This document shows positions 20,114-37,307 of a DNA stretch of 64,000 nucleotides, piece after piece. Where the stretch lies: positions 62,001-126,000 of the forward strand of contig NZ_JAGTAR010000008.1 in NCBI RefSeq assembly GCF_018156225.1, read 5' to 3'. The notes under the pieces are model-generated. The model made no database searches. It saw only the letters and a program-made list of their open reading frames with translations, and was not told the origin of the DNA. Each line of letters begins with the position of its first letter. Within the stretch, counting starts at the first letter, position 1. This DNA comes from Carboxylicivirga sediminis (GTDB lineage: Bacteria > Bacteroidota > Bacteroidia > Bacteroidales > Marinilabiliaceae). The position numbers and the translations under genes were made by a program.

Positions 20114-20262
20114 GAATCCTCGCGTACTATTCTTTCCGCATTAGTCTACTTCAGGTTAAATTGTAAAAAAATGTAAATTTTATATGCGGCTGTAAACCTT
20201 ACTGTAGCTGCTTTCGCTTGATATTTTTCACTTCAATGAGTATTGCATGAAAGTAAAATAAA

Positions 20263-20303
20263 ATGCAAACGCTTGCATTATAAAAAATGTCAGTGCATAT
20301 TTG
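20263..20303 (+). promoter_or_regulatory. LacI-type operator and promoter before susC
   Basis: The palindrome ATGCAAACGCTTGCAT (20263-20278) has the CpG-centred inverted-repeat form of LacI/PurR-family operators. The TTG at 20273-20275 inside it is spaced 20 bases from CATATTTG at 20296-20303, a one-mismatch TAnnTTTG box, so the operator overlaps the -33 element. The same arrangement occurs at 26971-27011. The regulator encoded at 25886-26914 is the obvious ligand (inference). Confidence 0.75.
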
Positions 20304-20348: not shown

Positions 20349-23300
20349 ATGAATGAAAATCCAATTAATGGCATAAGTATACGTCTTTGTGTCATGCAAA
20401 TTGGCAGGCGCTTATTTTTTTTATTGCTGTTTGCTTTGATTTTTTCAACAGTGCAAGTGTTTGCGCAAAATGAGGTGAATATCGCCGGAAATGTGACTGA
20501 TATTAGTGGAGAAACCTTGCCTGGCGTGAATGTTTCGGTAAAGGGTACTACCAATGGGACTATTACTGATATTGATGGAAACTTTACACTGACAGTATTG
20601 GAAAATGATGTCCTTGTTGTAAGTTTTGTCGGGTATAAAACCCAGGAAGTTTCTGTTAATGGACAGGTTAAGTTTGAAATTGTTTTAGAGGAAGATGTAA
20701 CTGACTTGGATGAGGTTGTGGTAGTTGGTTATGGTGTGCAAAAAAAATCAGATGTTACAGGTGCTATCTCAACGGTTAAGCCCGAAGAGTTAGTCAAGCG
20801 TGATGTGGCAACAGTAGATCAGGCACTGCAAGGGCAAATGGCTGGTGTTACTGTTACGCAAGGTTCGGGTACGCCTGGCGAATCACCAAACATTTCTATT
20901 AGAGGCTTAGGTTCGCTTAATAATACATCCCCGTTGTATGTGGTTGATGGTATGATGCTTGATGATATCTCACACATCAACGCTAAAGATATTGAATCAT
21001 TGCAGGTGCTGAAAGATGCTTCAGCATCAGCTATATATGGTTCGAGAGGTGCAAATGGCGTTATTATTTTAACGACAAAAAAAGGTAAGGCCGGACAAGG
21101 GAAAGTAAGTTTTAGTGGTTACTATGGTGTTCAGAATTTTGCACATACACCCGAGTTGACAACTGCTAGTGAATGGGGCATGCTCAATAATGAAGCGTTA
21201 CTTGCATCTGGTCAGGCACCGTTATATAATAACCCAGAGGCTTTAGGTAGGGGAACAGACTGGCTTGATGCCATCTCGAAAAAAAATGCTGCGATTCAGA
21301 GTTATGATCTTTCATTTTCCGGTGGTACTGACAAGAGTACCTATTTCATTAGTGGGCAGTATTTTAACCAGGATGGTGTAATCAACAAAACTAATTACGA
21401 GAGACTGTCTTTAAGGGTTAATACTGAGCATCAAATTAAAGACTGGTTAAAAGTTGGTGAAAATCTGACTGTTACAAACTCTAGTCAATCTACTGTTTTA
21501 GAAGGTGACGAATGGAATAACTTACTGATTACACCTTTGAATATGGAACCTGTAACACCTGTTTATAACGAAGATGGTTCCTATGCTGCTTCTAAAAACC
21601 AGGTAAACAATCCTGTTGCTGCTATTGATAATACTTTTAATAAAGACAAGTCATTCCGGGTTCTGGGTAATGTGTATGCAGATGTTACACTGTTAAAAGG
21701 TTTAACATTTAAAACCAACTTTGGTGCGAACTTTGCTTTTGATGAGGGTAATGATTATAACCCTGTTTATTACGTATCTAACACGGATAAGAATGATGTA
21801 AATACCCTTTTTAAGGGGCATGATAAGGAGACATCTATTTCATGGACAAATACAATGAATTACCATACTACTTTCGGCGAGAATCATGATTTTTCAGCCA
21901 CTGCCGGTACTGATTATTATGAGCAAAAATTTGAGTGGGATGGTACAACTGTATCTAATCTGCCTACTGACGATGAAAAGTACAGAGTAATTGACAACTC
22001 AAGGAATAAAAAAGTAGCTAATTCTTATGGTTCGTTTTTTGAAAACCGTCAAATATCTTATTTAGCCCGTGTTAATTATGCGTATAACGGACGTTACTTA
22101 TTGACTGCAAATTTCAGAGCTGATGGTTCGTCTAAATTCGGATCCAATGAAAAGTGGGGATATTTCCCTTCGTTCTCTGCAGGTTGGCGCATTGTAGAGG
22201 AAGATTTTATGGATGGTGTTGATTGGGTTAGTAACTTGAAATTACGCGCTGGTTGGGGGCAGATAGGTAACCAGGGAGCAATACCCGCATATACACAGTC
22301 TACCCTCGCGTCAACCGGGCTAAACTATGTATTCGGAATACCTAAATCAATTATTAGTGGTTCTGCTTTTCAAAGTTTAGGTAACGATGAAGTAAAGTGG
22401 GAAACTGTAGAAACCACAAACTTAGGATTGGACTTTGGCTTTTTCAGGGGACGTCTTTCTGGTAGTGTTGAGTATTATATCAAGAATACACGCGATATGT
22501 TATTGACGCCTCCGGTACCTGGGCAAACCGGTATTGAAACACCTCCATGGCTCAATGCAGGTGAGATGAAAAATACGGGTGTTGAGCTAGGTCTTAACTG
22601 GCAGGATAGGATTGGACAAGTAAGGTATTCGATAGGTGGAAATATTACTACCATTAACAATGAAGTGGTGAGCCTGGGAGATGCCTCGCAAATTGATGAT
22701 GGTGACTTCAGAAGTTCAGGGAATGTAAATCGTACCGTGGTAGGCCGCCCAGTTTCTAATTTTTATGGCTTAGTAGCTGAAGGACTATTCCAGAATTGGG
22801 AGGAGATTAATGTCTATTACCAGAATGCAGCTGACGGCGTGCCTGATAATGTAGCTCCGGGTGATATACGTTATCGTGATGCAGACGGCGATGGTGAATA
22901 TGATTATGATTTTATCGGAAGTCCTATTCCGGAGCTAACGTATGCATTCAATGGTAGTATCTCTTACCGTGGTTTTGATTTTAACTTTTTATTAAATGGT
23001 GTTTACAGCATTGATGTTTATAACGGACCAGGTTACTATCAGTTAAGTTCAAGAGCTTATTGGAATACAGCTAAAGAACGCCTGAACCGCTGGACCGGAG
23101 AAGGAAGTACCAATGATCCTCGTAATGCACGCATGGTCAATGATGACTCACACAATACGCGTATCTCCAGTCGTTATATTGAGGATGGTTCCTATCTGAG
23201 AATTCAGAATGTGCAGCTGGGATATACATTGCCCGAAAGTGTTGTAGCAAAGTTAAAGCTGGAATCATTGAGGGTATATGTTAGTGGACAAAACCTTTAC

Positions 23301-23423
23301 ACATTTACCGAATATACTGGCTATGACCCAGAGGTTGGCGGCTATGGTACGTCTATCGGACTTGATCGGGCTACTTATCCGGTTCCTCGCACAATTACTT
23401 TTGGTATGAACCTAAGCTTCTAA
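20349..23423 (+). CDS. SusC/RagA-type TonB-dependent outer-membrane transporter
   Basis: Up to 1024 residues; the start at 20394 (MQIGRRLFFLLLFALIF) gives a cleaner signal peptide ending VFAQ, so the first 15 residues may not be translated. A carboxypeptidase-regulatory-like domain (about 40-125) is followed by the TonB-box-like DEVVVVGYG, a plug domain (LYVVDGMML, IYGSRGANGVIILTTKKG) and the 22-strand barrel. It imports oligosaccharides captured by SusD. It is shorter than many SusC but complete. First gene of a susC-susD-lipoprotein operon behind a LacI-type operator. Confidence 0.95.
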   Translation: MNENPINGISIRLCVMQIGRRLFFLLLFALIFSTVQVFAQNEVNIAGNVTDISGETLPGVNVSVKGTTNGTITDIDGNFTLTVLENDVLVVSFVGYKTQEVSVNGQVKFEIVLEEDVTDLDEVVVVGYGVQKKSDVTGAISTVKPEELVKRDVATVDQALQGQMAGVTVTQGSGTPGESPNISIRGLGSLNNTSPLYVVDGMMLDDISHINAKDIESLQVLKDASASAIYGSRGANGVIILTTKKGKAGQGKVSFSGYYGVQNFAHTPELTTASEWGMLNNEALLASGQAPLYNNPEALGRGTDWLDAISKKNAAIQSYDLSFSGGTDKSTYFISGQYFNQDGVINKTNYERLSLRVNTEHQIKDWLKVGENLTVTNSSQSTVLEGDEWNNLLITPLNMEPVTPVYNEDGSYAASKNQVNNPVAAIDNTFNKDKSFRVLGNVYADVTLLKGLTFKTNFGANFAFDEGNDYNPVYYVSNTDKNDVNTLFKGHDKETSISWTNTMNYHTTFGENHDFSATAGTDYYEQKFEWDGTTVSNLPTDDEKYRVIDNSRNKKVANSYGSFFENRQISYLARVNYAYNGRYLLTANFRADGSSKFGSNEKWGYFPSFSAGWRIVEEDFMDGVDWVSNLKLRAGWGQIGNQGAIPAYTQSTLASTGLNYVFGIPKSIISGSAFQSLGNDEVKWETVETTNLGLDFGFFRGRLSGSVEYYIKNTRDMLLTPPVPGQTGIETPPWLNAGEMKNTGVELGLNWQDRIGQVRYSIGGNITTINNEVVSLGDASQIDDGDFRSSGNVNRTVVGRPVSNFYGLVAEGLFQNWEEINVYYQNAADGVPDNVAPGDIRYRDADGDGEYDYDFIGSPIPELTYAFNGSISYRGFDFNFLLNGVYSIDVYNGPGYYQLSSRAYWNTAKERLNRWTGEGSTNDPRNARMVNDDSHNTRISSRYIEDGSYLRIQNVQLGYTLPESVVAKLKLESLRVYVSGQNLYTFTEYTGYDPEVGGYGTSIGLDRATYPVPRTITFGMNLSF

Positions 23424-23451: not shown

Positions 23452-24957
23452 ATGAAGAAATTAAATATACTTACAATAGCAATAGCACTTATCACATTGC
23501 TGGGCTCTTGTTCGCAGGACTTATTAGATACCCCTGCGCCAAATATTTCAGATGCATCATTTTTTACATCTGATGAGGCTGCGTATGATGTACTGGTTGG
23601 TGTTTATGATCCTTTATCGCGTTACAACTATTCGCAAATACATGAGTGGATGATTGGTGACGTTGTGTCTGATGATGCCGAAAAAGGTGGTGAAGGACAC
23701 GGTGACTGGGCTGAGTGTCAGGATCTGAAAAATTTTAGAGCTAACACCGAAAATTCCATTTTACTGGCTCGCTGGCGCGAACCGTATGTAGGAATTAATC
23801 GTGCCAATAAGTTGATTGAAGGTATAGATGGAAATGAGAACATTTCGATGGATGTGCAGAAGCGTTATATTGCAGAAGCTAAGTTCTTGAGAGCCTGGTA
23901 TTATTTTCATTTAGTTAAAGTGTTTGGTGGTGTACCGATTGTTACTAGTGTGTTGCAGCCTTCGGAGTTTACATTACCTCGTAATACTGAAGCTGAGGTG
24001 TATGCACAAATCGAAAAGGATCTTAAAGAGGCTGCGCCAGAACTGCCTTTCAAGACTGAGTTTAAAGATCCGGTAACATTAATTGACCAGGAAGCCGGTC
24101 GTGCTACACGTGGGGCAGCTGAAGCTATGCTGATAAAGATGTACGTTTTCCAGGAGAAGTGGAGTGAAGCAGCAACTTTGGCTCAAAGCTTTATCGATAA
24201 TTATGATTGGTATGATCTGGAAGAAAATTATGCAGATGTTTTTACAAAGAAGGGAGAGAATGGTGTTGAGTCAATTTTTGAGATACAACATCTTGGAGTA
24301 GAGGGTGATGATGAATGGGGTGACTCTAACGATGGTAATGTAACAGCTATCTATCAAGGCAGTCGCGAGCTGTATAATGGCGATGGAGAAATAGTAAGTG
24401 GCTGGGGCTGGGGCTTTAATTTGCCCACTCAAGATTTGTATGATGAGTATGAGGATGGTGATTTGCGTCGCGAAGCTACTATCATAGACGATAAAGATGT
24501 GTTGTGGGAAGGATCAGATGATGAAGAAATCATTTGCACCAAGCACATCAATAGTATTGGGTATGACGCGAAAGTGTATCATTCAAAGAAATATTACATT
24601 CCGGCAAGTGAGCGCTTGAATATGTCCAATTCATCGAATAACTGGCGTGCAATCCGTTTCGCAGATGTGCTGTTATGGCATGCCGAGGCTAATGCGCACA
24701 CAGGCGGTGACTGGGAGTATGGTGTTAATCGGGTTAGGGCCAGAGTTGGGCTTGATCCAACAAGCTCTGCCGACGCATTGGAAGCAGTTTATCATGAGCG
24801 TCGTGTTGAATTAGCGATGGAAGGGCATCGTTACTGGGATTTAGTGCGTACCGGAAGAGGCAATCTGATGAATGGGTATTCAGACAATAAACGTTTAATG
24901 CCGATACCGCAGGCTGAAATTGGATTGAATCCAAATCTTGAGCAGAATCCTTATTAA
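23452..24957 (+). CDS. SusD/RagB-type glycan-binding lipoprotein
   Basis: 501 residues with lipobox LLGSC. Helical TPR-like SusD fold: the N-terminal SusD-like segment, KRYIAEAKFLRAWYYFHLVK at about 140-160, and the C-terminal ERRVELAMEGHRYWDLVRTG followed by MPIPQAEIGLNPNL. It caps the upstream SusC on the cell surface and binds the target glycan. Starts 28 bases after susC; one-base overlap with the longest reading of the next gene. Confidence 0.95.
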   Translation: MKKLNILTIAIALITLLGSCSQDLLDTPAPNISDASFFTSDEAAYDVLVGVYDPLSRYNYSQIHEWMIGDVVSDDAEKGGEGHGDWAECQDLKNFRANTENSILLARWREPYVGINRANKLIEGIDGNENISMDVQKRYIAEAKFLRAWYYFHLVKVFGGVPIVTSVLQPSEFTLPRNTEAEVYAQIEKDLKEAAPELPFKTEFKDPVTLIDQEAGRATRGAAEAMLIKMYVFQEKWSEAATLAQSFIDNYDWYDLEENYADVFTKKGENGVESIFEIQHLGVEGDDEWGDSNDGNVTAIYQGSRELYNGDGEIVSGWGWGFNLPTQDLYDEYEDGDLRREATIIDDKDVLWEGSDDEEIICTKHINSIGYDAKVYHSKKYYIPASERLNMSNSSNNWRAIRFADVLLWHAEANAHTGGDWEYGVNRVRARVGLDPTSSADALEAVYHERRVELAMEGHRYWDLVRTGRGNLMNGYSDNKRLMPIPQAEIGLNPNLEQNPY

Positions 24958-25885: not shown

Positions 25886-26914
25886 ATGTCCCCTAAAGAG
25901 AAGAAAGGCGAAATAACCATTAATGATATAGCCAAAGAGCTTAATATTTCACCATCAACAGTTTCGAGAGCCTTAAATGATAATGCTAAAATCAGTGAGG
26001 CAACTAAAAACAAAGTTAAAGCGGTAGCAAGAGATTTAGGTTATGAGCTGAATTTGGTGGCGTCAAGTCTTTCAAAGAATAAAACGAATGTAATTGGGGT
26101 TATTATTCCACATCTTGGTTCGCAGTTTTTTGCCAAAGCATTGAGTGGTATACAAGAGGTGGCCAGAGATAATGGATATAATGTTATTATTAGTCAAACC
26201 AATGAAAGTGTGCAGCAAGAGGTTGAAATGACGCGCGTGATGAATTCGGCCCGAGTGGATGGGTTGGTGTGTTGTTTAACTATGGAAACAGACAATGTTG
26301 ATCACTTTAATGTTTTCGTCAAAAAAAGTATCCCGGTTGCTATGTTCGATAGGGTTAGTTATGCTGTCCCCGGACCAAAAATTGTTGTTGATAATTATGA
26401 AGCTGGATATGTCGCTACTGAGCATTTAATTAATTTAGGATGTAAACGTATTGCTCACCTGGCAGGAGTGGTTTCTTCAAAGGTGTTTGAGGAGAGGTCG
26501 GAAGGTTTTAAAGATGCTTTAAAGAAGCATAGTTTACCGTTATTGTCTCAATTTTTGTTGTCAAGCGATTTGACTGAGCAAGATGCACGTGATGCTGTGC
26601 GCTTGTGGATGAATTTGCCCCAGAGACCTGATGGTATTGTTGCGGCAAGTGCCTCCTCTGGCTTAATTATAGCCTCGGCAGTTAAGGCTTTGGGAATTAA
26701 ACTTCCTGAGGAGCTATCCATAATTTCGCTTGGGAATGAGCGTTGTAATGAATTTGTAACACCTTCCTTATCGGCAGTTGATATGCCTGGTTATGAAATG
26801 GGTAAGGCCGCAGTAACTCAGTTAATAAAATGTATTAACGATGGTGTATCTGATAGTTCAATCACATTAAAGCCTATTCAGCTGTTAATACGAAATTCAT
26901 CATTTAAGCATTAG
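25886..26914 (+). CDS. LacI family transcriptional regulator
   Basis: 342 residues. The helix-turn-helix (about 11-30, TINDIAKELNISPSTVSRAL) and hinge helix are followed by a periplasmic-binding-protein-like effector domain (NVIGVIIPHLGSQFFAKAL, then VDGLVCC, GCKRIAHLAG and IISLGNE). It should bind the paired palindromes at 20263-20278 and 26971-26986 and respond to a sugar or sugar phosphate. It lies between the susCD operon and the GH2 gene, both of which carry the operator; no copy of the operator precedes its own start. Confidence 0.93.
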   Translation: MSPKEKKGEITINDIAKELNISPSTVSRALNDNAKISEATKNKVKAVARDLGYELNLVASSLSKNKTNVIGVIIPHLGSQFFAKALSGIQEVARDNGYNVIISQTNESVQQEVEMTRVMNSARVDGLVCCLTMETDNVDHFNVFVKKSIPVAMFDRVSYAVPGPKIVVDNYEAGYVATEHLINLGCKRIAHLAGVVSSKVFEERSEGFKDALKKHSLPLLSQFLLSSDLTEQDARDAVRLWMNLPQRPDGIVAASASSGLIIASAVKALGIKLPEELSIISLGNERCNEFVTPSLSAVDMPGYEMGKAAVTQLIKCINDGVSDSSITLKPIQLLIRNSSFKH

Positions 26915-26970: not shown

Positions 26971-27011
26971 ATGCAAGCGCTTGCATGGATGATAATATTT
27001 GTGCATATTTG
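26971..27011 (+). promoter_or_regulatory. LacI-type operator and promoter before GH2 gene
   Basis: ATGCAAGCGCTTGCAT (26971-26986) is a perfect 16-bp palindrome. TTG at 26981-26983 is 20 bases from CATATTTG (27004-27011). The 14 bases between operator and GTGCATATTTG are the same in number as at the susC promoter, so both promoters share one architecture. Confidence 0.78.
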
Positions 27012-27035: not shown

Positions 27036-29669
27036 ATGAAACTATCTGTATTAAGTAATTGGATGTTATGTCTTTCAGTCATTGTTTTGACAGGATGTAC
27101 ATCAAGTGAAAAAGCGGAATATATGACAGAGTTGAATAGTAACTGGTTCATTCAGTCAGCAGATCAAGTGCCGGTAACTGGTGCAGAGTTAAGTAAAACT
27201 GCCTATAATTCCGATAGCTGGGTGAAAGGTGATATACCGGCAACCGTAATGACTATTTTACGTGAGAATGGAGAATACGATGATTTATTCATGGGCGATA
27301 ATATTGATAGGATTGATGATTCGCGTTTTAAACAGCCATGGTGGTATCGTAAAACATTCGAAGTAAAAAACTTTGATAAGCAGGCAACTTATCAACTTCG
27401 TTTTGAAGGATTGAACTATAAAGCAAATATCTGGCTTAATGGGCATCAATTAGGTAAAGCTACTGTTATTGAAGGACCATTTAGCCGATGGACATTTGAT
27501 GCCAGTGATTATTTAGTGCCTGGTAACAATGTTATGGCTGTTGAAATCATTCCTCCTGTTAAAGGCGATTTAACCATTGGTTTTGTAGACTGGAATCCTG
27601 CAGCGCCCGATCAGAATATGGGTTTATGGCGTGGCGTTGAGTTAATAAAAAGTGGTGCAGTATCTATCGAATCACCTTTTGTTAGTACTAAGTTGGACGA
27701 AAATCACGTCAATCATGCTGAATTAACGGTGACAGCCCTGGTAACAAATCATTCCGAAAGTCCGCAGAAAGTAACTGTTGAAGCTTTTATTGAAGAGATT
27801 GGAAAGGTTGCAAAGCAAATAGAACTGAAGGCAGGAGAGTCAAAAGACATTGCTATTACATCTAAAGATGCATCACTGCTTAAAGTTGAGAATGCAAAGT
27901 TGTGGTGGCCCAATAACCTTGGTGAGCCGAACATGTATGCTATGACCGTTAGTGCTAAAATTAATGGTCAGGTATCGCAGGAGATTAGCACGCGTTTTGG
28001 AATTCGCCAAATAGAAGAGTACTGGAATGAACAAGGCCATAAAGGTTGGAAAGTGAATGGTAAGCCCTTAACCATTAAAGGTGCCGGATGGGTAGATGAC
28101 ATGTTCTTGGCCGATAGTGAAGCTAAAGTTCGGGCTCAGGTCGAATACGTAAAGCATATGAACCTGAACTGTATTCGTTTAGAAGGTTTTTGGGGACGTG
28201 ATAAAACGATATATGATGCAGCTGATGAGAATGGTTTGCTGATTATGGTTGGTTGGAGTTGTCATTGGGAATGGGAACCTTATTGCGGTCGTCCCGAAAC
28301 TGACTTTATGGCCATTACAGGCAAAGAAGAGATTGAGCGTCATGCCTTATCATATCGAGATCAGGTTTTGTACTTACGAAATCATCCCAGTGTATTTCTA
28401 TGGGTATTTGGAAGTGATAAATTACCAGTACCCGAGCTGGAAGAAAAGTTGAATGATTACATTACCAATGTAGATGATTCGCGACCTATATTGGCAGCAT
28501 GTAAATACCAGGATTTTGGAACAGACCATTATAATCATAGCGTAGTGAGTGGTTCAACGGGTGTTAAAATGTTAGGCCCATATGGCTATGTTCCGCCTGT
28601 TTACTGGTATATAGATACTATTGCCGGAGGTGCTTATGGCTTTAATACCGAAACAGGACCTGGACCACAAGTGCCACCAGTTGAAAGTATTAAGAAGATG
28701 ATTCCCGCTGACAAGTTATGGCCAATCAACGATACCTGGAATTTTCATTGTGGCAGACACCAGTTCGGTTCATTGGATCGTTACTTAAATTCATTCAACA
28801 AGCGCTATGGCGGAGCCACTTCGCTTGAAGAATTTGCTTTCAAGTCGCAGGTGTCCAATTATGAAGCGATTCGACCAATGTTCGAGGCTTTTCAGTCTAA
28901 TAAATTTGAGGCAACAGGTGTTATTCAGTGGATGCTTAATTCTGCCTGGCCTGAAATGTTCTGGCAGTTATATGACTACTATTTGCTGCCTAATGGAGCG
29001 TTTTATGGCACAAAAAAGGCATGTGCTCCGTTAAATGCTGTTTACAATTATAAAGACAAGAATATTTATTGGGTAAATGATTACAATACGACGCTTAGTA
29101 ATCACAGTATAAGCATCGAAGTGTATGATATAAATTCCAAACTTTTATTTGCTGAGAAGGTAATGGTTGATATGGATGCGCATAACTCAGGGCTGGCTTT
29201 TGAAATGCCAGAAATAGAGGGCTTGTCAACAGCCTACTTCATCAATTTGGAGTTGCACAATGAGGCAGGTAAACTAATGACAGATAACTTTTATTGGTTA
29301 TCCACAAAGGCGGATGAGATGTTGTTTGAAGAAACAACATGGGTTTATACCCCTCCAAAGGATTATGCTAATCTTCAGTTGCTTAATTCGCTTCCTGAGG
29401 TTAACGTGAACGCTCAATGGACACAACATAAAGATGCAAACTATACCTACTTTGAATGTCAGCTTGAGAATAGATCAAATCAAATAGCATTCTTTGTCGA
29501 AACAGCGGTGCTTGATAAGGCTACCAATGAAGTAATTGTTCCTGTATTTTGGGATGACAACTATATTAGTATCATGCCCAATGAGACGAAGATAGTTACA
29601 GCCCGTATTGCCAATGAACTCATGCCCGAGTCAGTGGAGTATAGGATAGATGGCTGGAATATAAAATAA
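27036..29669 (+). CDS. GH2 exo-beta-D-glucosaminidase-like lipoprotein
   Basis: 877-residue family 2 glycoside hydrolase with lipobox VLTGC. Jelly-roll sugar-binding domain (about 30-200), Ig-like domain, barrel from about 330, then C-terminal beta domains. In place of the usual GH2 NE pair it has FGSDKLP with Asp461 at the acid/base position, and Glu539 in FNTETGPGP at the nucleophile position. An Asp at the acid/base is a mark of the exo-glucosaminidase (CsxA-like) subfamily as I know it. It would release GlcN from chitosan oligosaccharides. Own promoter with LacI-type operator; terminator after it. Confidence 0.82.
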   Translation: MKLSVLSNWMLCLSVIVLTGCTSSEKAEYMTELNSNWFIQSADQVPVTGAELSKTAYNSDSWVKGDIPATVMTILRENGEYDDLFMGDNIDRIDDSRFKQPWWYRKTFEVKNFDKQATYQLRFEGLNYKANIWLNGHQLGKATVIEGPFSRWTFDASDYLVPGNNVMAVEIIPPVKGDLTIGFVDWNPAAPDQNMGLWRGVELIKSGAVSIESPFVSTKLDENHVNHAELTVTALVTNHSESPQKVTVEAFIEEIGKVAKQIELKAGESKDIAITSKDASLLKVENAKLWWPNNLGEPNMYAMTVSAKINGQVSQEISTRFGIRQIEEYWNEQGHKGWKVNGKPLTIKGAGWVDDMFLADSEAKVRAQVEYVKHMNLNCIRLEGFWGRDKTIYDAADENGLLIMVGWSCHWEWEPYCGRPETDFMAITGKEEIERHALSYRDQVLYLRNHPSVFLWVFGSDKLPVPELEEKLNDYITNVDDSRPILAACKYQDFGTDHYNHSVVSGSTGVKMLGPYGYVPPVYWYIDTIAGGAYGFNTETGPGPQVPPVESIKKMIPADKLWPINDTWNFHCGRHQFGSLDRYLNSFNKRYGGATSLEEFAFKSQVSNYEAIRPMFEAFQSNKFEATGVIQWMLNSAWPEMFWQLYDYYLLPNGAFYGTKKACAPLNAVYNYKDKNIYWVNDYNTTLSNHSISIEVYDINSKLLFAEKVMVDMDAHNSGLAFEMPEIEGLSTAYFINLELHNEAGKLMTDNFYWLSTKADEMLFEETTWVYTPPKDYANLQLLNSLPEVNVNAQWTQHKDANYTYFECQLENRSNQIAFFVETAVLDKATNEVIVPVFWDDNYISIMPNETKIVTARIANELMPESVEYRIDGWNIK

Positions 29670-29683
29670 TCTGAGTAATTGCT

Positions 29684-29746
29684 AAGAAACCGGCTGATTT
29701 TAACTCAACTAAGCCGACCTGAAAATGAGGCCGGTTTCTTCTTTTG
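29684..29746 (+). terminator. Terminator after GH2 gene
   Basis: AAGAAACCGGC (29684-29694) pairs with GCCGGTTTCTT (29730-29740) across a 35-base loop, followed by CTTTTG. Separates the GH2 transcript from the ROK pair. Confidence 0.6.
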
Positions 29747-29859
29747 CTTCTAATGAATAACTGAGAGATAAACCTTTTTTGCATGAGTTATTTTGAGAGG
29801 TAACTGATGTACACTGAAGATGCCCGTCAATGGGTGTGCAAAAACAAAATGTAAAATTA

Positions 29860-30720
29860 ATGGAACAAACAAGAACAATTATAGGGGTTGATTTGGGAGG
29901 AACGAACATGAGAGCAGGCCTCGTTGTAGGTGATAAAATACTTGAGGTGTCTTCTTGTTTAGTACCCAAAACTGATAATGCTCCTGATGTAACTCAGGCA
30001 CTCATAAAAACGATTAGAGATGTAATCACGCCCGAAGTGGAAGGAATAGGTATTGGTGTGCCAAGTCTGGTTAAATCAAGCAACGGTGTTGTTTATGACG
30101 TGCAGAATATACCTTCATGGAAAAAAATACCGTTAAAAGACATATTGGAGAAGGAATTCGAACTGCCTGTATGCATCAACAACGATGCTAACTGCTTCGC
30201 TGTAGGTGAGCGTGTCTATGGTGCTGGTCAGGAATATGATGACTTCGTTGGTTTAATCACCGGAACTGGTGTAGGAGGAGGTATTATCAAAAATGGGCAT
30301 TTGCTGCCGGATCAAAACTGTGGAGCTGGTGAATTTGGGATGATCCCTTACCTGGAACACGATTATGAATACTACTGCAGTGGACAGTTTTTTGAGAATA
30401 AATACAATGTAAGTGGCAATGAATTGGCGCAGAAGGCTTCAGAAGGTGATGAAAAAGCACTGTCTGTTTTTGCCGAGTATGGTACTCATTTGGGCAAGGT
30501 GATTAAAACTATTTTATTTAGTGTCGATCCAAAGGCCATAGTTTTGGGAGGTTCTGTTTCCAGGTCATTTGAGTATTATAAAATAGCCATGTGGAAAGAG
30601 ATAGCTACCTTTCCATACCAGTTTGTTCTTGAAAATTTCGTAATTGTACCGTCTGTAGTGAAGGAAATTGCTATTTTAGGTGCTGCAGCTCTTTATATTG
30701 ATGCTGTTGGTGAAGATTAA
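29860..30720 (+). CDS. ROK family sugar kinase
   Basis: 286 residues from the ATG at 29860 (MEQTRTIIG); an ATG at 29830 would add ten residues. Phosphate-binding motif DLGGTNMRAG with D11 and T15, catalytic Asp109 in INNDANC, and the ATP-site TGTGVGGG (134-141) are intact. The classical ROK zinc motif (CxCGxxGCxE) is absent; instead there is GEFGMIPYLEHDYEYYCSGQ, as in a Bacteroidota ROK branch. A cytoplasmic glucosamine, GlcNAc or glucose kinase is expected; context favours glucosamine. 26 bases before a paralogue. Confidence 0.88.
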   Translation: MEQTRTIIGVDLGGTNMRAGLVVGDKILEVSSCLVPKTDNAPDVTQALIKTIRDVITPEVEGIGIGVPSLVKSSNGVVYDVQNIPSWKKIPLKDILEKEFELPVCINNDANCFAVGERVYGAGQEYDDFVGLITGTGVGGGIIKNGHLLPDQNCGAGEFGMIPYLEHDYEYYCSGQFFENKYNVSGNELAQKASEGDEKALSVFAEYGTHLGKVIKTILFSVDPKAIVLGGSVSRSFEYYKIAMWKEIATFPYQFVLENFVIVPSVVKEIAILGAAALYIDAVGED

Positions 30721-30746
30721 ACTACTAACTATCCATACCGAAAGAT

Positions 30747-31619
30747 ATGATACAAGATATGACAGTTCAAAATCAGTGTGCTGTAGGTGTTTACCTTGGA
30801 GGAAAACACTTACGTGTGGGACGGGTTCGAAATAATATTGTGGAGGCATCACTGGCGCTTGAAATAGATAACCATAATTCAGAGGAAGTCATCCTGAAAG
30901 ATATTATGGATGCCATTGATCAGGTGTTTAATGAGGATGTGGGTGGCATTGGGATTGGGGTGCCTAGTCTTGTTGATGTATCAAAAGGAATAGTGTATAA
31001 TGTGGAGCATATGCCATCGTGGCGCGAAGTTCACCTGGGCGATTTACTATCTGACCGTTATAAGGTAGGTGTTTATGTAAATAATGATGCTAACTGCTTT
31101 GCTATCGGAGAAAAGTACTTCGGGAAAGCAAAGAAATATGCCAATGTAGTAGGCATTGTTGTTGGTGTTGGACTAGGGGCAGGTGTCATCACAGATAACC
31201 ATTTATACTCAGGCACAAATTGTGGGGCCGGTGAGTTTGGTTGTATTCCTTATCGCGATCATAATTACGAATATTACTGTACAACACAATATTTTGAAAC
31301 CAAGTATGGCCTGAAGCCAGATGTGCTTTACCGAAGAGCTAAAAAACAGGATAAAATTGCTTTGGCTATTCTGGAGCAGTTTGGTTTTGATTTTGGGCAA
31401 GCTGTTAAAACCATATTATATGCCTATGATCCGGAGTGTATAGTGATTGGTGGTAATGTAAGCCGTTTCTTTCCATATTTCGAAGAGTACATGTGGAAAG
31501 CAGTTCGGAAGTTTCAATATGAAAAAACCATTGAAAAACTGAAGATAGAGGTAAGTGAGCAGCCTGATATAGCCGTGCTTGGTGCTGCTGCATTATACTA
31601 TGATGCCATCTCTAAATAG
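30747..31619 (+). CDS. ROK family paralogue with altered ATP-site motifs
   Basis: 290 residues, clearly homologous along its length to the upstream ROK protein (GIGIGVPSL, VNNDANCFAIGEK with Asp114, GAGEFGCIPYRDHNYEYYC). The phosphate-1 motif DLGGTN is replaced by VYLGGKH, with Asp to Tyr16 and Thr to Lys20, and the adenosine/phosphate-2 motif TGTGVGGG is replaced by VGVGLGAG. The catalytic Asp remains. It may be a sugar-binding pseudokinase, a regulator or a partner subunit of the first ROK protein. Start at 30747 or 30759. Confidence 0.85.
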   Translation: MIQDMTVQNQCAVGVYLGGKHLRVGRVRNNIVEASLALEIDNHNSEEVILKDIMDAIDQVFNEDVGGIGIGVPSLVDVSKGIVYNVEHMPSWREVHLGDLLSDRYKVGVYVNNDANCFAIGEKYFGKAKKYANVVGIVVGVGLGAGVITDNHLYSGTNCGAGEFGCIPYRDHNYEYYCTTQYFETKYGLKPDVLYRRAKKQDKIALAILEQFGFDFGQAVKTILYAYDPECIVIGGNVSRFFPYFEEYMWKAVRKFQYEKTIEKLKIEVSEQPDIAVLGAAALYYDAISK

Positions 31620-31833: not shown

Positions 31834-33612
31834 ATGAAGAAACTTTTGTACTTAACTATTTTAATAACTTCATTATTATCGTGTAAGAAGCAAACAACCG
31901 ATGATGGGATTTTCCTGATTAACCATGTAGGTTATGAGACCGAGGCTTATAAGTCTGCTGTATTTCAAATTAAGTCAGATGTTATTCCTTCAAAGTTCGA
32001 GATTATCAATCAACAGGATGAGCTGGTGTTTGAAGGAAAGTTCGAATTGGGTGGCGCAATTGATAACTGGCATACTGGTAATGCTTATAAAGCGCTGTTT
32101 TCTGAATTTAAACAGCTTGGTACATTTCGAATAAAAGCTATTGTTAATGATGGCTTTGTGCTTTCAGAACCATTCATTATTTCCAATACGTCACAGGCAG
32201 CCGACTTATTGCCATTGCTAATTAAAGCTTTTCAGCAGCAGCGGTGTGTATCGCCTTACGACGACAAGGATAAGGTAATGACTTTTTTTGGGGAGCGTAA
32301 AGACACGGTTGATGTAAGTGGTGGGTGGTACGATGCCTCCGGTGAAAAGGGCAAGTACCTGAGCCATTTGAGTTTTTCCAATTACATGACACCTCAGCAG
32401 CTCCCTATGATGGTCTGGAATATGTTAGAAGCGCATGATGTAATTCAAGGCTCTGATATTGCTAATCACCAGTTGTTGCATGAGTTGACAAAGGAAGCAG
32501 CTCATGGTGCCGACTATCTGGTTAAGGTACAGGATGATGCCGGTTACTTTTATACCACTGTTTTTGCTGGTTGGACCAAAGATCCGGAGCAACGTCAGAT
32601 TTGTGCGTATGAGGGGCAGGATGGTAAGCGCAATGAACGTTACCAGGCTGCTTTAAGAGAAGGTGGGGGTATGGCCATTGCTGCCTTGGCGCGTTCATAC
32701 TCAGCTGATCTTAATGGGGAGTTTAATGCGGGTCAATACCTGAATGCCGCTATCAAAGGTTATGAGCATTTAAAGCAAAATAACCTGATGTATTGTGATG
32801 ACGGGAAGGAAAATATTATTGATGACTATTGTGCCTTGCTAGCTGCCACTGAGTTATTCAAGGCCACACGAAATGATATATATATGACCGATGCCCGTAT
32901 CAGGGCGAGTTCACTTAAAGCACGCCTTATGAGTGATGTAAACGGGAAATATTGGTTGCGGGCCGATGAGCATGGTGAGCGTCCGTTTTTTCATGGTGCT
33001 GAAGCAGGACTGCCTGTTATTGCAATGACACATTATCTTGCCATTGAAAACGATGTGCATCTGCAAGAAGAAGCGAAGGTATTTATTGCTAAAGCTTTGA
33101 GTTTTGAGTTATGGGTGACAAAAGAAGTAACTAATCCTTTTGGCTATGCACGTCAACTGATAAAATCAACTAATGAGCCAAAAGCACGAACGGCTTTCTT
33201 TCTGCCACATCATAACGAAACAGGTTATTGGTGGCAAGGTGAAAACGCTCGTCTGGCATCATTGGCTACGGCAATGCTGAAGTCGAAAAACTTATTAAAC
33301 AATGAAATGCAGGAGGCTGCCGCTAACTATGCATTTGATCAAATAAATTGGGTGCTTGGCCTCAATCCTTACAATGTATGTATGCTGCATGGAGCAGGAC
33401 GAAATAATCCTGATTATAAAGAAGATGGTAAATCGATGAATTACATGGGTGGTATTTGCAATGGTATTACGGGTGGATTTGATAATGAGCAGGATATTGC
33501 GTTCAGGCCTATGCCATATGATGATGATCCTGCGCAGAGGTGGCGTTGGTCGGAGCAATGGTTACAGCACGGAGGGTGGATGATTCCGGCGATTGCCTAT
33601 ACTACAAAATAA
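31834..33612 (+). CDS. GH9 enzyme, glucosaminidase-like type, lipoprotein
   Basis: 592 residues. Lipobox SLLSC, N-terminal Ig-like CelD_N domain (about 25-115) and an (alpha/alpha)6 barrel. The GH9 signature appears as SGGWYDASGEKGKYLSH with Asp167 followed by Ser-Gly-Glu rather than the cellulase DAGD. The catalytic acid is Glu470 in YWWQGENARL. The DASG variant is, as I recall, the form seen in GH9 exo-glucosaminidases of Vibrionaceae chitin catabolism. Two other GH families here that can act on chitosan support that reading, but cellobiose-type substrates cannot be excluded. Confidence 0.78.
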   Translation: MKKLLYLTILITSLLSCKKQTTDDGIFLINHVGYETEAYKSAVFQIKSDVIPSKFEIINQQDELVFEGKFELGGAIDNWHTGNAYKALFSEFKQLGTFRIKAIVNDGFVLSEPFIISNTSQAADLLPLLIKAFQQQRCVSPYDDKDKVMTFFGERKDTVDVSGGWYDASGEKGKYLSHLSFSNYMTPQQLPMMVWNMLEAHDVIQGSDIANHQLLHELTKEAAHGADYLVKVQDDAGYFYTTVFAGWTKDPEQRQICAYEGQDGKRNERYQAALREGGGMAIAALARSYSADLNGEFNAGQYLNAAIKGYEHLKQNNLMYCDDGKENIIDDYCALLAATELFKATRNDIYMTDARIRASSLKARLMSDVNGKYWLRADEHGERPFFHGAEAGLPVIAMTHYLAIENDVHLQEEAKVFIAKALSFELWVTKEVTNPFGYARQLIKSTNEPKARTAFFLPHHNETGYWWQGENARLASLATAMLKSKNLLNNEMQEAAANYAFDQINWVLGLNPYNVCMLHGAGRNNPDYKEDGKSMNYMGGICNGITGGFDNEQDIAFRPMPYDDDPAQRWRWSEQWLQHGGWMIPAIAYTTK

Positions 33613-33761
33613 ATCAAGTTATACCGGCGGAACGCTATTGGCAGAGTGGTAGCAAATCCTTTGTAGCTAGTTGAAAATCTTTTCCTGGTAGCAAGTATTT
33701 CTTCAATTGGCATTGCCTTCAGCTCCTTTAATAAATAGTGTTCCGCTTTAACCCTGAAATC

Positions 33762-35030
33762 ATGAAATTGAGAGGTCTTTTTATATTGTTTACCAGTTTG
33801 TCATTAAGTGCATGTAATTCTGATGAGGTTCCTGTAAGACCGAATGGGCGCTCATTAATTATACATGAACCGTCAGAAGCAATAAAACCATTTCCGCAGG
33901 CTCAAACATTTGTAAATAGTATCAAGCCCAATAACCTGAGCCAGGAGGAATTAAATAACGATGTGGTAACGTACTATCAGTATTGGTTAAAGAAGTATAT
34001 GAGGGAGTCAAATGGTCAGACACCGGGTGGCGGTTATTATGTGCGCATGAAAGGTACCGGTGGTGATGGTTCAGAAATAACAACTTCTGAAGCTCATGGT
34101 TACGGAATGATTGTGTTGGCCTTAATGGCGGGTTACGATGTTAACGCCAAAAAGTACTTCGATGGAATGCTTAATATGTGTTATCAGCATTACAGCAGTG
34201 GTAATTCAAAATGTATGTCGTGGGTAATTCATGAAAGTGAAGAAAGCCAATACTGACAAGCTAGTGCCACCGATGGAGATATGGATATTGCATATGCCTT
34301 GTTATTGGCCGATAAACAATGGGGATCTGATGGAGCTATTAATTATTTACAAATGGCAAAAGATGTTATAGCAGGGCTCAGAGAAAGTTGCCTTTCGTCA
34401 TCTTCCAAACGGATGATGCTTGGCGATTGGGATAGCGATCCCTATACAACGCGTTCTTCAGATTGGATGACCGGACATATGCGTTGCTTCTATGCGGTAA
34501 CAGGTGATGCCTTATGGCTCGAAGCCATTGAGGAGGTCTATTCAATGATTGATGAAATGACTAAAAATTATAGTCCGGAAAAAGGCCTGATGCCCGATTT
34601 TGTAGTCGGAAAAACACCACAGCCTGCACCTGAATATTTTCTGGATGAGTATAAGCAAACAAATCACTACAGCTGGAATGCCTGTCGTTACCCATGGCGG
34701 ATTTCGGCTGACTATTTGCACTTTGGGGGCAGTGATGCGAAAAGTGCGATGGCCACCTTAACGGATTTCTTTGTGGATGCGTCAGGCGGTCATCCGGCTA
34801 ACATTAAAATGGGATATTATCTTAATGGGAAGCCCATGGACAACTATTCGAGTGCGGCATTTATAGCACCTGTCATCACAGCATCAACCACCGATGTTAA
34901 ATACCAGGCTTATCTTAACGAAGGGTGGGATTGGCTAAACCGGTTTGTTAATGAAACGTATTACAGCGATACAATAACATTACTTAATATGTTGCTGATA
35001 TCTGGTAATTGGTGGAATCCGGCTGAATAA
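33762..35030 (+). pseudogene. GH8 (chitosanase/endoglucanase family) with in-frame TGA
   Basis: One frame of 423 codons from ATG 33762 to TAA 35030, interrupted only by TGA at 34254-34256 (codon 165). Lipobox SLSAC. The GH8 signature with catalytic Glu110 is TTSEAHGYGM; SATDGDMDIAYALLLADKQW lies just after the TGA, and the C-terminal half (34257-35030) continues the barrel (NACRYPWRISADY). The family includes chitosanases, endoglucanases and xylanases. Both halves are well preserved, so the lesion is recent, a sequencing error, or subject to read-through. A separate start at 34281 would give a truncated, inactive half-barrel. Confidence 0.82.
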
Positions 35031-35102: not shown

Positions 35103-36149
35103 TTATAATATCCAGTTAAAGAGATAGCCTAACAGGATAATAAACAGAGTGATGGTTGCGAAGAATATGCCTATCAGCTTCCATTGCATAACCTTTTTAA
35201 GCAGTGTGGCTTCAGGCAATGAAAGCCCTATAACGGCCATCATAAAAGCAATGGCTGTGCCCAGGGGAACGCCTTTGGCCACAAATACCTGTATAATTGG
35301 CACAATTCCTGATGCACTGGCATATAGCGGAACAGCCATAATAACTGCCAATGGGATGGCATACCATTTGTCCTCAGACAGATACTCTGAAAAGAAATTC
35401 TCAGGAACAAAACCATGCATGAGTGCACCAATTCCAATACCCAGAATAATGTATGGCAGTACTTTTCGGACGATGCCCCATCCATCTGCAATAATGGCAG
35501 GCAGTCGTTCAGTAAAGCTCTGGTTTTCTAACTCAAAATCAGCTATGTTAGCCGGATCTGCATTGCGCTGTATTTGCTGAACCCAATCGGCCAGGTAGCG
35601 ATCAAGCTTTAGCTTGCCAAGTAGGAAACCGCCAATGACTCCAAGGAAAATGCCGCTTGTAGCATAGATAAGTGTGGTTTTCCAGCCAAAGAAGCCCAGG
35701 AACATAGCTACAGCCACTTCGTTTACTAAAGGCGAGGTAATGAGGTAGGCAAAGGTGACTCCTAATGGGATACCTCCTTGCACAAAGCCAATAAACAATG
35801 GGATAGAGGAGCATGAGCAAAATGGAGTCACAGCACCAAATAATGAAGCAAATAAATATTGCAGCCCATACAGCTTTTTTGTAGTCAGGTAATTTCTTAG
35901 TCTTTCTACCGGAAAATAGGTATTAACAAGGCCCATCAATGAGCTGATTAAGAAAACCAGTATAATAATTTTAATACTATCATAGAAAAAGAAGTTTATT
36001 ACTTGCCCCCAATGGGAATCAGCCTTAAGTGTAAATAGTTCATATGTCATATAGTCGACAAGTGGCTGCAAATAATAGAACAATACGATAATAGCAGGTA
36101 GAGCTAATGCTATTTGTGTTGAAATGCTTAAGCGCTTTTGTAATCTCAT
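35103..36149 (-). CDS. ArsP/DUF318-type permease
   Basis: 348 residues with about eight to ten membrane helices in two homologous halves (NEVAVAMFLGFFGW and GTAIAFMMAVIGLS regions) and the FCSCSSIPLFIG motif of the DUF318 permease family. Members include ArsP, an exporter of trivalent organoarsenicals, and putative Cu/Zn effluxers. Last gene of an ArsR-controlled operon, 2 bases after the preceding membrane gene. Substrate is not shown. Confidence 0.85.
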   Translation of the reverse strand: MRLQKRLSISTQIALALPAIIVLFYYLQPLVDYMTYELFTLKADSHWGQVINFFFYDSIKIIILVFLISSLMGLVNTYFPVERLRNYLTTKKLYGLQYLFASLFGAVTPFCSCSSIPLFIGFVQGGIPLGVTFAYLITSPLVNEVAVAMFLGFFGWKTTLIYATSGIFLGVIGGFLLGKLKLDRYLADWVQQIQRNADPANIADFELENQSFTERLPAIIADGWGIVRKVLPYIILGIGIGALMHGFVPENFFSEYLSEDKWYAIPLAVIMAVPLYASASGIVPIIQVFVAKGVPLGTAIAFMMAVIGLSLPEATLLKKVMQWKLIGIFFATITLFIILLGYLFNWIL

Positions 36150-36151
36150 TA

Positions 36152-36850
36152 CTAAAATATTAAGGTTATCACAAAATAGATACCGACGCCGATAAATAAA
36201 ATGGCGATAGCACGTCGGAACCAGATTTCAAAATTCTTTAACCTATTATAGAAGCTGCCTATTGAGCCAATACTGTAGGCAATTAACCAGGCAAAGATCA
36301 TGACAGGTATGCCTGTTGCCAGTGCAAAAACAATGGGTAAATAAAGCCCCTCGGCACTTGCTATGGTCATGGGTATCAGCATGCCAAAGTAGAGTACGCC
36401 GCTATATGGACAAAATGCTAAGGCAAATGCGAAACCTAATAATAGTGCTCCCCAGTAACTATTGCCGGCTTTCTTTTCCAGCTTATCGTTTAAGAAGCCA
36501 AGGCCTGGAATAGTTAGTTTAATAATTCCGAGCATAAACAGACCTATGATTATTAACAAAGGACCTAATAGTTTTTCGCCCCATTCCTGAAAAAAGCCTG
36601 AAAGTTGAAACTGGCTTAAGCCGAAAAAGAAGATAAAACCCAAACCAGTATAGGAAATGGCCCGTCCTAATGTGTAAACAAGACCATTGATAAATACTCG
36701 CTTTTGACTTTTGATATCTTTACTGATAAAACCGATGGCTGTGATGTTAGTTGCCAATGGGCAGGGGCTTACAGCTGTCATCAGTCCCAGTATAAATGCT
36801 GATAAAATTGGAAGCTGAGAGTTTTCCAACAAATTCTGTAATACTTCCAT
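36152..36850 (-). CDS. ArsG/DsbD-like membrane protein
   Basis: 232 residues, six to seven membrane helices. The motifs AVSPCPLATN and AFCPYSGVLYFGM place a Cys in each half, as in the CcdA/DsbD superfamily; this size and neighbourhood match proteins annotated ArsG-type aromatic arsenical permeases. It may pass electrons or thiol equivalents across the membrane to the lipoprotein encoded just upstream, or act as a permease. One-base gap to the ArsF-like gene. Confidence 0.8.
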   Translation of the reverse strand: MEVLQNLLENSQLPILSAFILGLMTAVSPCPLATNITAIGFISKDIKSQKRVFINGLVYTLGRAISYTGLGFIFFFGLSQFQLSGFFQEWGEKLLGPLLIIIGLFMLGIIKLTIPGLGFLNDKLEKKAGNSYWGALLLGFAFALAFCPYSGVLYFGMLIPMTIASAEGLYLPIVFALATGIPVMIFAWLIAYSIGSIGSFYNRLKNFEIWFRRAIAILFIGVGIYFVITLIF

Positions 36851-36851
36851 A

Positions 36852-37307
36852 CTATGACATTGATTCGATTGTTGATTTAATCAACGCTTCCAGCTTTTCT
36901 GGTTTGGTACGGGCATTTAAAAAGGCTTCGTTGGTCAGGTTCTTAATCTGATCACCTTTCATGATTAAAAGGGTTTGCCACTCTACCTCATATTTCTTTG
37001 CCAATTCTTTTTCTACTTCGCGGTTAATAGAATGGAACGGGACAGTAGTATCGAAATATTTAGCCAAAGTTTCTTTCGTAACTTTTTCAACAGCTTCGCA
37101 AGTGGCACAACGCCTGGTAGCATGAAAATAAACTACATTGACTTTGCTGGTGTCAATGGTTGTAGTACTTGTTTTTGAACTACAGCAGCTTTGAGATTCA
37201 CACGAACTGCAATCTGTTTCGGTCTTAGTTTTTTGCTTATTAGAATTGCAGCCAGCAGTTAGTAATATTGTGACCCCAACCACAAAAGTGTAGAATATTT
37301 TAGTCAT
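36852..37307 (-). CDS. ArsF-like thioredoxin-fold lipoprotein
   Basis: 151 residues. Lipobox LLTAGC; then a Cys-rich linker (CSSCESQSCC) and a thioredoxin-like domain (NVVYFHATRRCATCEAVEKV, with a CxxC pair near 73-76). It matches the ArsF-type family found beside ArsG. Likely periplasmic redox partner of the DsbD-like membrane protein. The Cys-Ser linker may bind metalloid or metal ions. Confidence 0.8.
   Translation of the reverse strand: MTKIFYTFVVGVTILLTAGCNSNKQKTKTETDCSSCESQSCCSSKTSTTTIDTSKVNVVYFHATRRCATCEAVEKVTKETLAKYFDTTVPFHSINREVEKELAKKYEVEWQTLLIMKGDQIKNLTNEAFLNARTKPEKLEALIKSTIESMS

Follow-up and report, generated by a model that had tools for sequence, protein, structure and literature searches.

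The second of two tandem ROK-family genes in a 64,000-nucleotide stretch of Carboxylicivirga sediminis DNA (hereafter the window) encodes a predicted pseudokinase, ROK2, in which the ATP-phosphate residues are lost and the sugar-side residues are kept. As judged from sequence, ROK2 is an old, constrained pseudokinase family with few carriers, since it forms a single clade, adjoins its neighbor ROK1 in most loci, and has diverged less than ROK1. The reading favored here, with confidence evenly balanced for and against, is that ROK2 would be a catalytically dead kinase duplicate turned non-catalytic sensor or regulator of glucosamine, akin to yeast Gal3.

ROK1 (29830..30720, + strand; PF00480, 1.4e-45) is a canonical ROK sugar kinase with intact DLGGTN, NNDANC, and TGTG motifs and is predicted to act on glucosamine, a substrate assigned from its gene neighbors. 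An internal ATG at 29860, the start used in the initial annotation, provides an alternative start. ROK2 (30747..31619, + strand; PF00480, 3.3e-40) begins 26 bases beyond the ROK1 stop codon on the same strand, and the two proteins are 44% identical, in agreement with the initial annotation of two adjacent ROK paralogues. ROK2 is 290 amino acids long, and PF00480, starting at residue 13, is its sole Pfam match. The same Pfam search found no helix-turn-helix of the kind present in ROK repressors, and a role for ROK2 as a DNA-binding ROK repressor was rejected on that ground. The pseudokinase prediction draws on motif counts, the ROK2 clade, and an AlphaFold2 model.

In the aligned sequences, the ROK1 motifs IGVDLGGTN, CINNDANC, and ITGTGVGGG correspond to VGVYLGGKH, YVNNDANC, and VVGVGLGAG in ROK2, exactly as first read for both proteins. 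The changes from ROK1 to ROK2 are D21 to Y16, T25 to K20, T144 to V139, and T146 to V141; the NNDANC loop and the GAGEFG and EYYC segments are retained in ROK2. PMC5458393 gives as signatures of ROK sugar kinases (i) the DxGxT motif, (ii) a strictly conserved catalytic aspartate, (iii) ExGH, and (iv) the Cys-rich zinc motif CxCGxxGCx(E/D). The DxGxT nucleotide motif is present in ROK1 and absent from ROK2, which has YLGGK in its place, and the catalytic aspartate is found in ROK2 (D114). At the ExGH position ROK1 has GEFGM and ROK2 GEFGC, the histidine being absent from both, as is the zinc motif. These two absences were considered as signs of degeneration and rejected, being common to ROK1 and ROK2 and hence a trait of the subfamily. 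A Fusobacterium ROK kinase that lacks the zinc motif retains ExGH and other active-site features (PMC5458393), which likewise argues against reading the missing zinc motif as degeneration.

Orthologs were drawn from a search that covered 84,980 species, by the tool's own description, with a single genome per species; of its 173 confirmed loci the best 80 were kept, and all totals are lower bounds for that reason. The first locus set obtained from these 80 comprises 51 loci, 50 with ROK2 and one with a fusion protein (L050). For the 50-row ROK2 alignment, L017 (a near copy of the window), L046 and L080 (both cut by contig ends), and L050 were omitted; rows for the window, L095, and L097 took their place in the set. 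These 50 orthologs were compared with 43 ROK1 partners and 28 single-copy relatives, from which L069 was left out for a masked base in a motif; the latter two sets together form 71 canonical proteins.

Asp21, Thr25, and Thr146 are each invariant in the canonical relatives (71/71). Among the ROK2 orthologs, aspartate occupies the first position in two of 50 and threonine the third in five, and threonine is never found at the second, which is taken by lysine (40), arginine (7), glycine (2), or asparagine (1). Thr144 is variable in canonical proteins (threonine in 18 of 43 ROK1s and in none of the 28 single-copy relatives), so that only D21, T25, and T146 are informative and the losses number three, not four. 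The initial annotation had counted an aspartate and three threonines as lost; all four changes are present, with that at T144 uninformative. Its statement that the catalytic aspartate and sugar-side motifs survive holds throughout the family: Asn113, Glu163, and Glu175 are each conserved in 50/50 orthologs and Asp114 in 49, the exception being one of three genomes of one genus in which no ROK1 was found. With a constant offset of seven, Asn113, Asp114, Glu163, and Glu175 match Asn106, Asp107, Glu156, and Glu168, the predicted substrate-binding residues of the Fusobacterium kinase (PMC5458393).

The motif losses recur in ROK2 orthologs down to 52% identity. A search of the order yielded 19 more distant relatives, and all 19 have the canonical residues at Asp21, Thr25, Thr146, and the catalytic aspartate. 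Four further positions (S184, G185, G196, and S242), conserved in 68 or 69 of the 71 canonical proteins, are mostly altered in ROK2, and ten positions are conserved in ROK2 (at least 85%) and not in canonical proteins; Ser155, Arg197, Lys203, Ile204, and Ala207, among these ten, are invariant in all 50. Alignment of orthologs had been proposed in the initial annotation as a check on its pseudokinase reading, and the conserved substitutions, together with the motif table and the clade-wide loss, lend that reading strong support at the sequence level. Conservation of the motif loss in distant relatives suggests that ROK2 probably serves in sugar sensing or regulation instead of catalysis.

ROK2 forms one clade in a maximum-likelihood tree (51 rows, SH-aLRT 99) and a tree built without the motif columns still places all its members on the same side of a branch (52 rows, SH-aLRT 98). 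The second tree leaves out 12 of 33 newly read proteins: L095 and L097 were already in it, and the other ten, which had BLAST scores equal to those of kept rows, were taken as copies. Among the best 80 of 173 loci, the clade occurs within Bacteroidota in Marinilabiliaceae, Prolixibacteraceae, Flammeovirgaceae, Flavobacteriaceae, and Dysgonomonadaceae, and outside this phylum in Balneolota and one metagenome-assembled genome labeled Chlorobiota. Cultured relatives include Marinilabilia salmonicolor (L028/L029), Flammeovirga aprica (L018), and Alkalitalea saponilacus (L020). The order search recovered a subfamily match in 41 of 393 genomes and ROK2 in 11, the ROK2 label resting on E <= 1e-98 plus motif reading; the two genome collections overlap, and counts from the species scan and the order search are therefore not independent. 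Of 296 Bacteroidota genomes sampled evenly, 27 have a subfamily match at E <= 1e-45, and the window's own genome is the only one with two subfamily genes, by match counts and not motif readings. Neither this sample nor the order search supports the view that ROK2 is widespread in the phylum.

The genes around the pair include a LacI-family regulator (25886..26914, + strand; PF00356 and Peripla_BP) that has relatives at related loci, and a GH2 exo-beta-D-glucosaminidase of the CsxA type (27036..29669, + strand), identified by its match to 2vzs (E 1.7e-140) with an aligned GSD segment and by PF18368 (Ig_GlcNase). A Ser-Asp pair is the mark of CsxA-type exo-beta-D-glucosaminidases. Downstream of ROK2 lies a GH9 enzyme (31834..33612, + strand) whose best match is 3h7l (E 6.2e-166), in the 3h7l/5dgq/6gdt group, which we take to be exo-glucosaminidases. 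It is followed by an interrupted GH8 chitosanase-like gene (33738..35030, + strand), divided in two by an in-frame TGA (34254-34256); its second part matches PF01270 at 5.6e-12 and chitosanase 1v5c at E 1.5e-67, and its first part matches PF01270 at 3.4e-4, below the curated cut-off. In the near-identical locus of Carboxylicivirga mesophila (L017), whose ROK2 is 99.7% identical to that of the window, the GH8 gene is unbroken and encodes 422 amino acids. A SusC-like TonB receptor (20349-23423, + strand) and a SusD-like lipoprotein (23452-24957, + strand), both assigned by Pfam, lie further upstream.

With a chitosanase, an exo-beta-D-glucosaminidase, SusC/D, and a regulator thus predicted in one cluster, as in a chitosan/glucosamine utilization locus, the window locus looks like a LacI-controlled chitosan/glucosamine system. 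Among the loci of relatives (best 80 of 173), an MFS sugar transporter cluster is present in 22 of 51 and a glucosamine-6-phosphate deaminase/PIG-L cluster in 15 of 51, both identified on representatives; these, with the GH2, GH9, and GH8 matches, point to glucosamine as the sugar. In Bacteroides, D-glucosamine is reported to be phosphorylated by a ROK kinase and a hexokinase (PMC11300592), which makes the predicted glucosamine kinase role of ROK1 reasonable. Beyond GH8, on the - strand (35103-37307), an ArsP-type permease and a DsbD-like transmembrane protein, then a Cys-rich small protein, apparently form a separate thiol/metal operon.

The palindrome NGCAANCGNTTGCN precedes both SusC and GH2 in the window. 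Upstream of GH2 it is a perfect 16-base palindrome (26971..26986, unstranded), and upstream of SusC a second, near-identical copy is found (20262..20279, unstranded); the putative LacI operator site is also given as ATGCAAGCGCTTGCAT. Among the best 80 of 173 loci, NGCAANCGNTTGCN occurs upstream of GH2 in 17 of 51 and upstream of other locus genes in two more. All 19 belong to the ROK2 subclade that contains the window (24 loci, or 25 rows when the window is counted; support 99), and none to the 27 loci outside it. On this evidence the palindrome does not qualify as a general feature of these loci; within the subclade it is plausibly a LacI operator. The gap between GH2 and ROK1 contains a strong hairpin with a U-rich run (29684..29744, + strand; fold z-score -3.72 over 29670-29760), a possible terminator or attenuator that is missing from the pattern-scan list; ROK1-ROK2 may therefore be partly uncoupled from GH2. 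Promoter-like sites are near chance in number (26 found, 19.8 expected, sd 4.8).

LacI genes were found within the fetched flanks of 25/50 ROK2-set loci vs 3/29 single-ROK loci, a comparison in which the window-LacI query favors near relatives. Those at more distant loci are 27-33% identical to the window's LacI. They group in one clade with a support of 82 against few controls (three other own-genome LacI genes and three single-ROK loci), and a ROK2-specific LacI clade is not claimed.

ROK2 also occurs where ROK1 was not found. Six of the 11 ROK2-bearing genomes of the order have ROK1 on the same contig. The other five (G460, G574, G640, G488, and G387), which are 96-99% complete, have no second subfamily member, and their next ROK matches stand at E 3e-19 or worse. 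G574, G488, and G387 (L117-L119) belong to one genus; in each, a LacI-family gene immediately precedes ROK2, whose catalytic aspartate is replaced by asparagine (NNNANC, 3/3), with no glycoside hydrolase among the four neighbors scanned. In G640 (L120) the gene order is LacI, GH2, MFS, ROK2, and deaminase. G460 has neither ROK1 nor LacI near ROK2; its locus L121 and L039 are apparently one locus in two collections. Within the fetched upstream flanks of 4.4-6 kb, ROK1 is likewise not found in L021, L055, and L053. A search for a replacement kinase with PF01869 reached the cut-off in one of six genomes (G460), and PF00349 gave no match in eight genomes, with control genomes equally blank.

The L050 fusion (L050:4467-7187), a Calditrichaceae protein, joins a related and partly degenerate ROK domain (DLDGAN, with GTG kept) to PAS, Hpt, and HATPase domains. 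Its neighbors, a second sensor kinase (Reg_prop), a response regulator, and CheX, make up a two-component cluster. Together with the genomes in which no ROK1 was found, this fusion suggests that ROK domains can act as input modules in signaling and that the degenerate protein is of use independently of ROK1.

In the favored sensor reading, GH8, GH2, and GH9 would break chitosan down to glucosamine, which ROK1 would phosphorylate, and ROK2 would bind glucosamine or glucosamine-6-phosphate without turnover. The bound state would most likely affect how the locus is expressed under LacI control, and it may act on ROK1 as well. Seven observations argue for this reading: (i) motif loss is clade-wide while the sugar-side residues are kept, (ii) the clade holds with the motif columns removed, and ROK2 is more constrained than ROK1, (iii) five of the 11 ROK2-bearing genomes of the order are without a second subfamily member, (iv) LacI-ROK2 pairs persist with the catalytic aspartate changed to asparagine in three genomes of one genus, (v) LacI is linked to ROK2 in the proportions given above, (vi) the putative operator stands before GH2 and SusC, and (vii) a related ROK domain is fused to signaling domains in L050. 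The sugar sensor suggested in the initial annotation thus gains indirect support from its kept sugar pocket, the LacI neighborhood, the co-occurrence of LacI and ROK2 where no ROK1 was found, and the fusion.

Several points weigh against it. LacI proteins sense ligands themselves, so that a second sensor is not obviously needed. The ROK2 of L039/L121 has neither ROK1 nor LacI nearby, the distant LacI proteins are only 27-33% identical to that of the window, and the operator is confined to the window's subclade. In addition, two glucosamine loci (L053 and L120, with LacI, GH2, MFS, and deaminase) contain no recognized kinase-like gene besides ROK2.

A wider proposal is put forward tentatively and leans toward doubt: ROK2 would represent a free-standing ROK subfamily of amino-sugar sensors that abandoned ATP chemistry, acts with a LacI repressor, is kept under stricter upkeep than the kinase, and is able to outlive it. 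Its conserved lysine or arginine may bind the 6-phosphate of the product, and the whole would amount to a bacterial Gal1/Gal3 split. If true, a free-standing conserved ROK pseudokinase beside an active sister would show that an enzyme can turn into a sensor by another path, and some genes whose match to the ROK family is as good as that of any kinase would not encode enzymes. The gene pair, the putative operator, and the relatives in cultured strains make the question directly testable.

The AlphaFold2 model of ROK2 has the full ROK fold (pLDDT 91.5, pTM 0.88). Its top match is human ManNAc kinase 2yhy (Z 32.5, rmsd 2.4, 275 residues), which with the PF00480 match places ROK2 in the ROK family. 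The inducer-bound Listeria ROK repressor Lmo0178 (5f7r) aligns with Z 31.8 and rmsd 2.5 over 277 residues, a score tied with other fold matches within 1 Z; on the modeled structure, the fold alone does not separate a sensor, a heteromer subunit, and a kinase. Relative to ROK sugar kinases such as GNE/NanK and the ROK glucokinases, ROK2 is alike in its full-length fold, catalytic aspartate, and sugar-side asparagine and glutamates but is without DxGxT, the second phosphate-loop threonine, and the zinc motif. ROK repressors (Mlc, NagC, and Lmo0178) sense sugars via a ROK domain fused to DNA-binding parts; Lmo0178 is among the best fold matches of ROK2, which however is without a DNA-binding domain.

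For yeast Gal3/Gal1, PMC8964464 describes a post-duplication copy that lost kinase activity and became a sugar-bound signal transducer. ROK2 is similarly a paralogue of a pathway kinase, with loss of activity that is predicted only; at the sequence level it has lost kinase residues and retained those of the sugar pocket, as a Gal3-like sensor derived from a kinase would. Gal3 acts on Gal80, for which the candidate counterpart here is LacI, by genomic linkage only. To our knowledge, Gal1 and Gal3 are not ROK proteins. No ROK pseudokinase or pseudoenzyme, and no such pair, was found in the open literature, outside which most subscription papers lie.

The main rival, possible and on balance doubtful, has ROK1 and ROK2 form a hetero-oligomer in which ROK2 would be an obligate, non-catalytic subunit that activates, stabilizes, or feedback-controls ROK1. 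Among the best 80 of 173 loci, ROK1 is present in the fetched stretch of 43 of 51 and lies less than 150 bases upstream of ROK2 on the same strand in 40 of 51, that is, in 40 of 43 pairs, a count in which the window stands in for L017, its near copy; this arrangement fits a ROK1-directed role as well as it fits the sensor reading. ROK1 and ROK2 divergence is also correlated (Pearson 0.80 over 903 pairs, uncorrected for shared ancestry). ROK kinases dimerize via the C-terminal domain (PMC5458393), and eight of the ten ROK2-specific conserved positions fall in the half with that domain, where about five are expected by chance; these positions hint at a conserved contact surface. A precedent is the trypanosomatid deoxyhypusine synthase, for which PMC3663545 reports a conserved dead paralogue kept beside the active one. 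ROK2 resembles such Prozyme-type proteins as a conserved, predicted-dead paralogue beside an active one but differs in being present without ROK1 in some genomes, the ROK1-ROK2 heteromer being itself hypothetical. The five genomes with ROK2 and no second subfamily member, and the three loci without ROK1 in their upstream flanks, weaken the obligate role; the hetero-oligomer partnership first envisaged for ROK2 is possible in view of the adjacency of the two genes.

It is improbable that ROK2 has remained an active sugar kinase or phosphotransferase, with a phosphate site altered by lysine or arginine in place of threonine or with another phosphate donor. The near-universal catalytic aspartate speaks for such residual activity, as do L053 and L120, in which ROK2 is the only recognized kinase-like gene beside GH2, MFS, and glucosamine-6-phosphate deaminase and which are the chief reason for giving this reading the weight it has. 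Against it, the aspartate, first threonine, and second threonine that are invariant in canonical proteins are lost in 48, 50, and 45 of the 50 orthologs, respectively, and the catalytic aspartate is also gone in all three genomes of the genus without a found ROK1. In the five genomes where no ROK1 was found, phosphorylation of the sugar could moreover fall to the products of other, distant ROK genes that are present there.

That ROK2 is a decaying, functionless duplicate, as its lost active-site residues might suggest, is refuted by clade-wide conservation and purifying selection and deserves practically no credence. Across the 50 orthologs 41 columns are invariant, and the distance between ROK2 proteins is shorter than that between the corresponding ROK1 proteins in 903 of 903 locus pairs. 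Chance or sequencing error behind the ROK2 changes is excluded by their recurrence in orthologs and by the same selection. In all 52 distinct pairs computed, dN is lower for ROK2 than for ROK1. The pairs that allowed an estimate of dS give omega values of 0.014-0.067 (ROK2) and 0.030-0.138 (ROK1), which are rough because many dS are saturated or above 1; in the L014-L016 pair, omega is marginally higher for ROK2 (0.044 vs 0.043).
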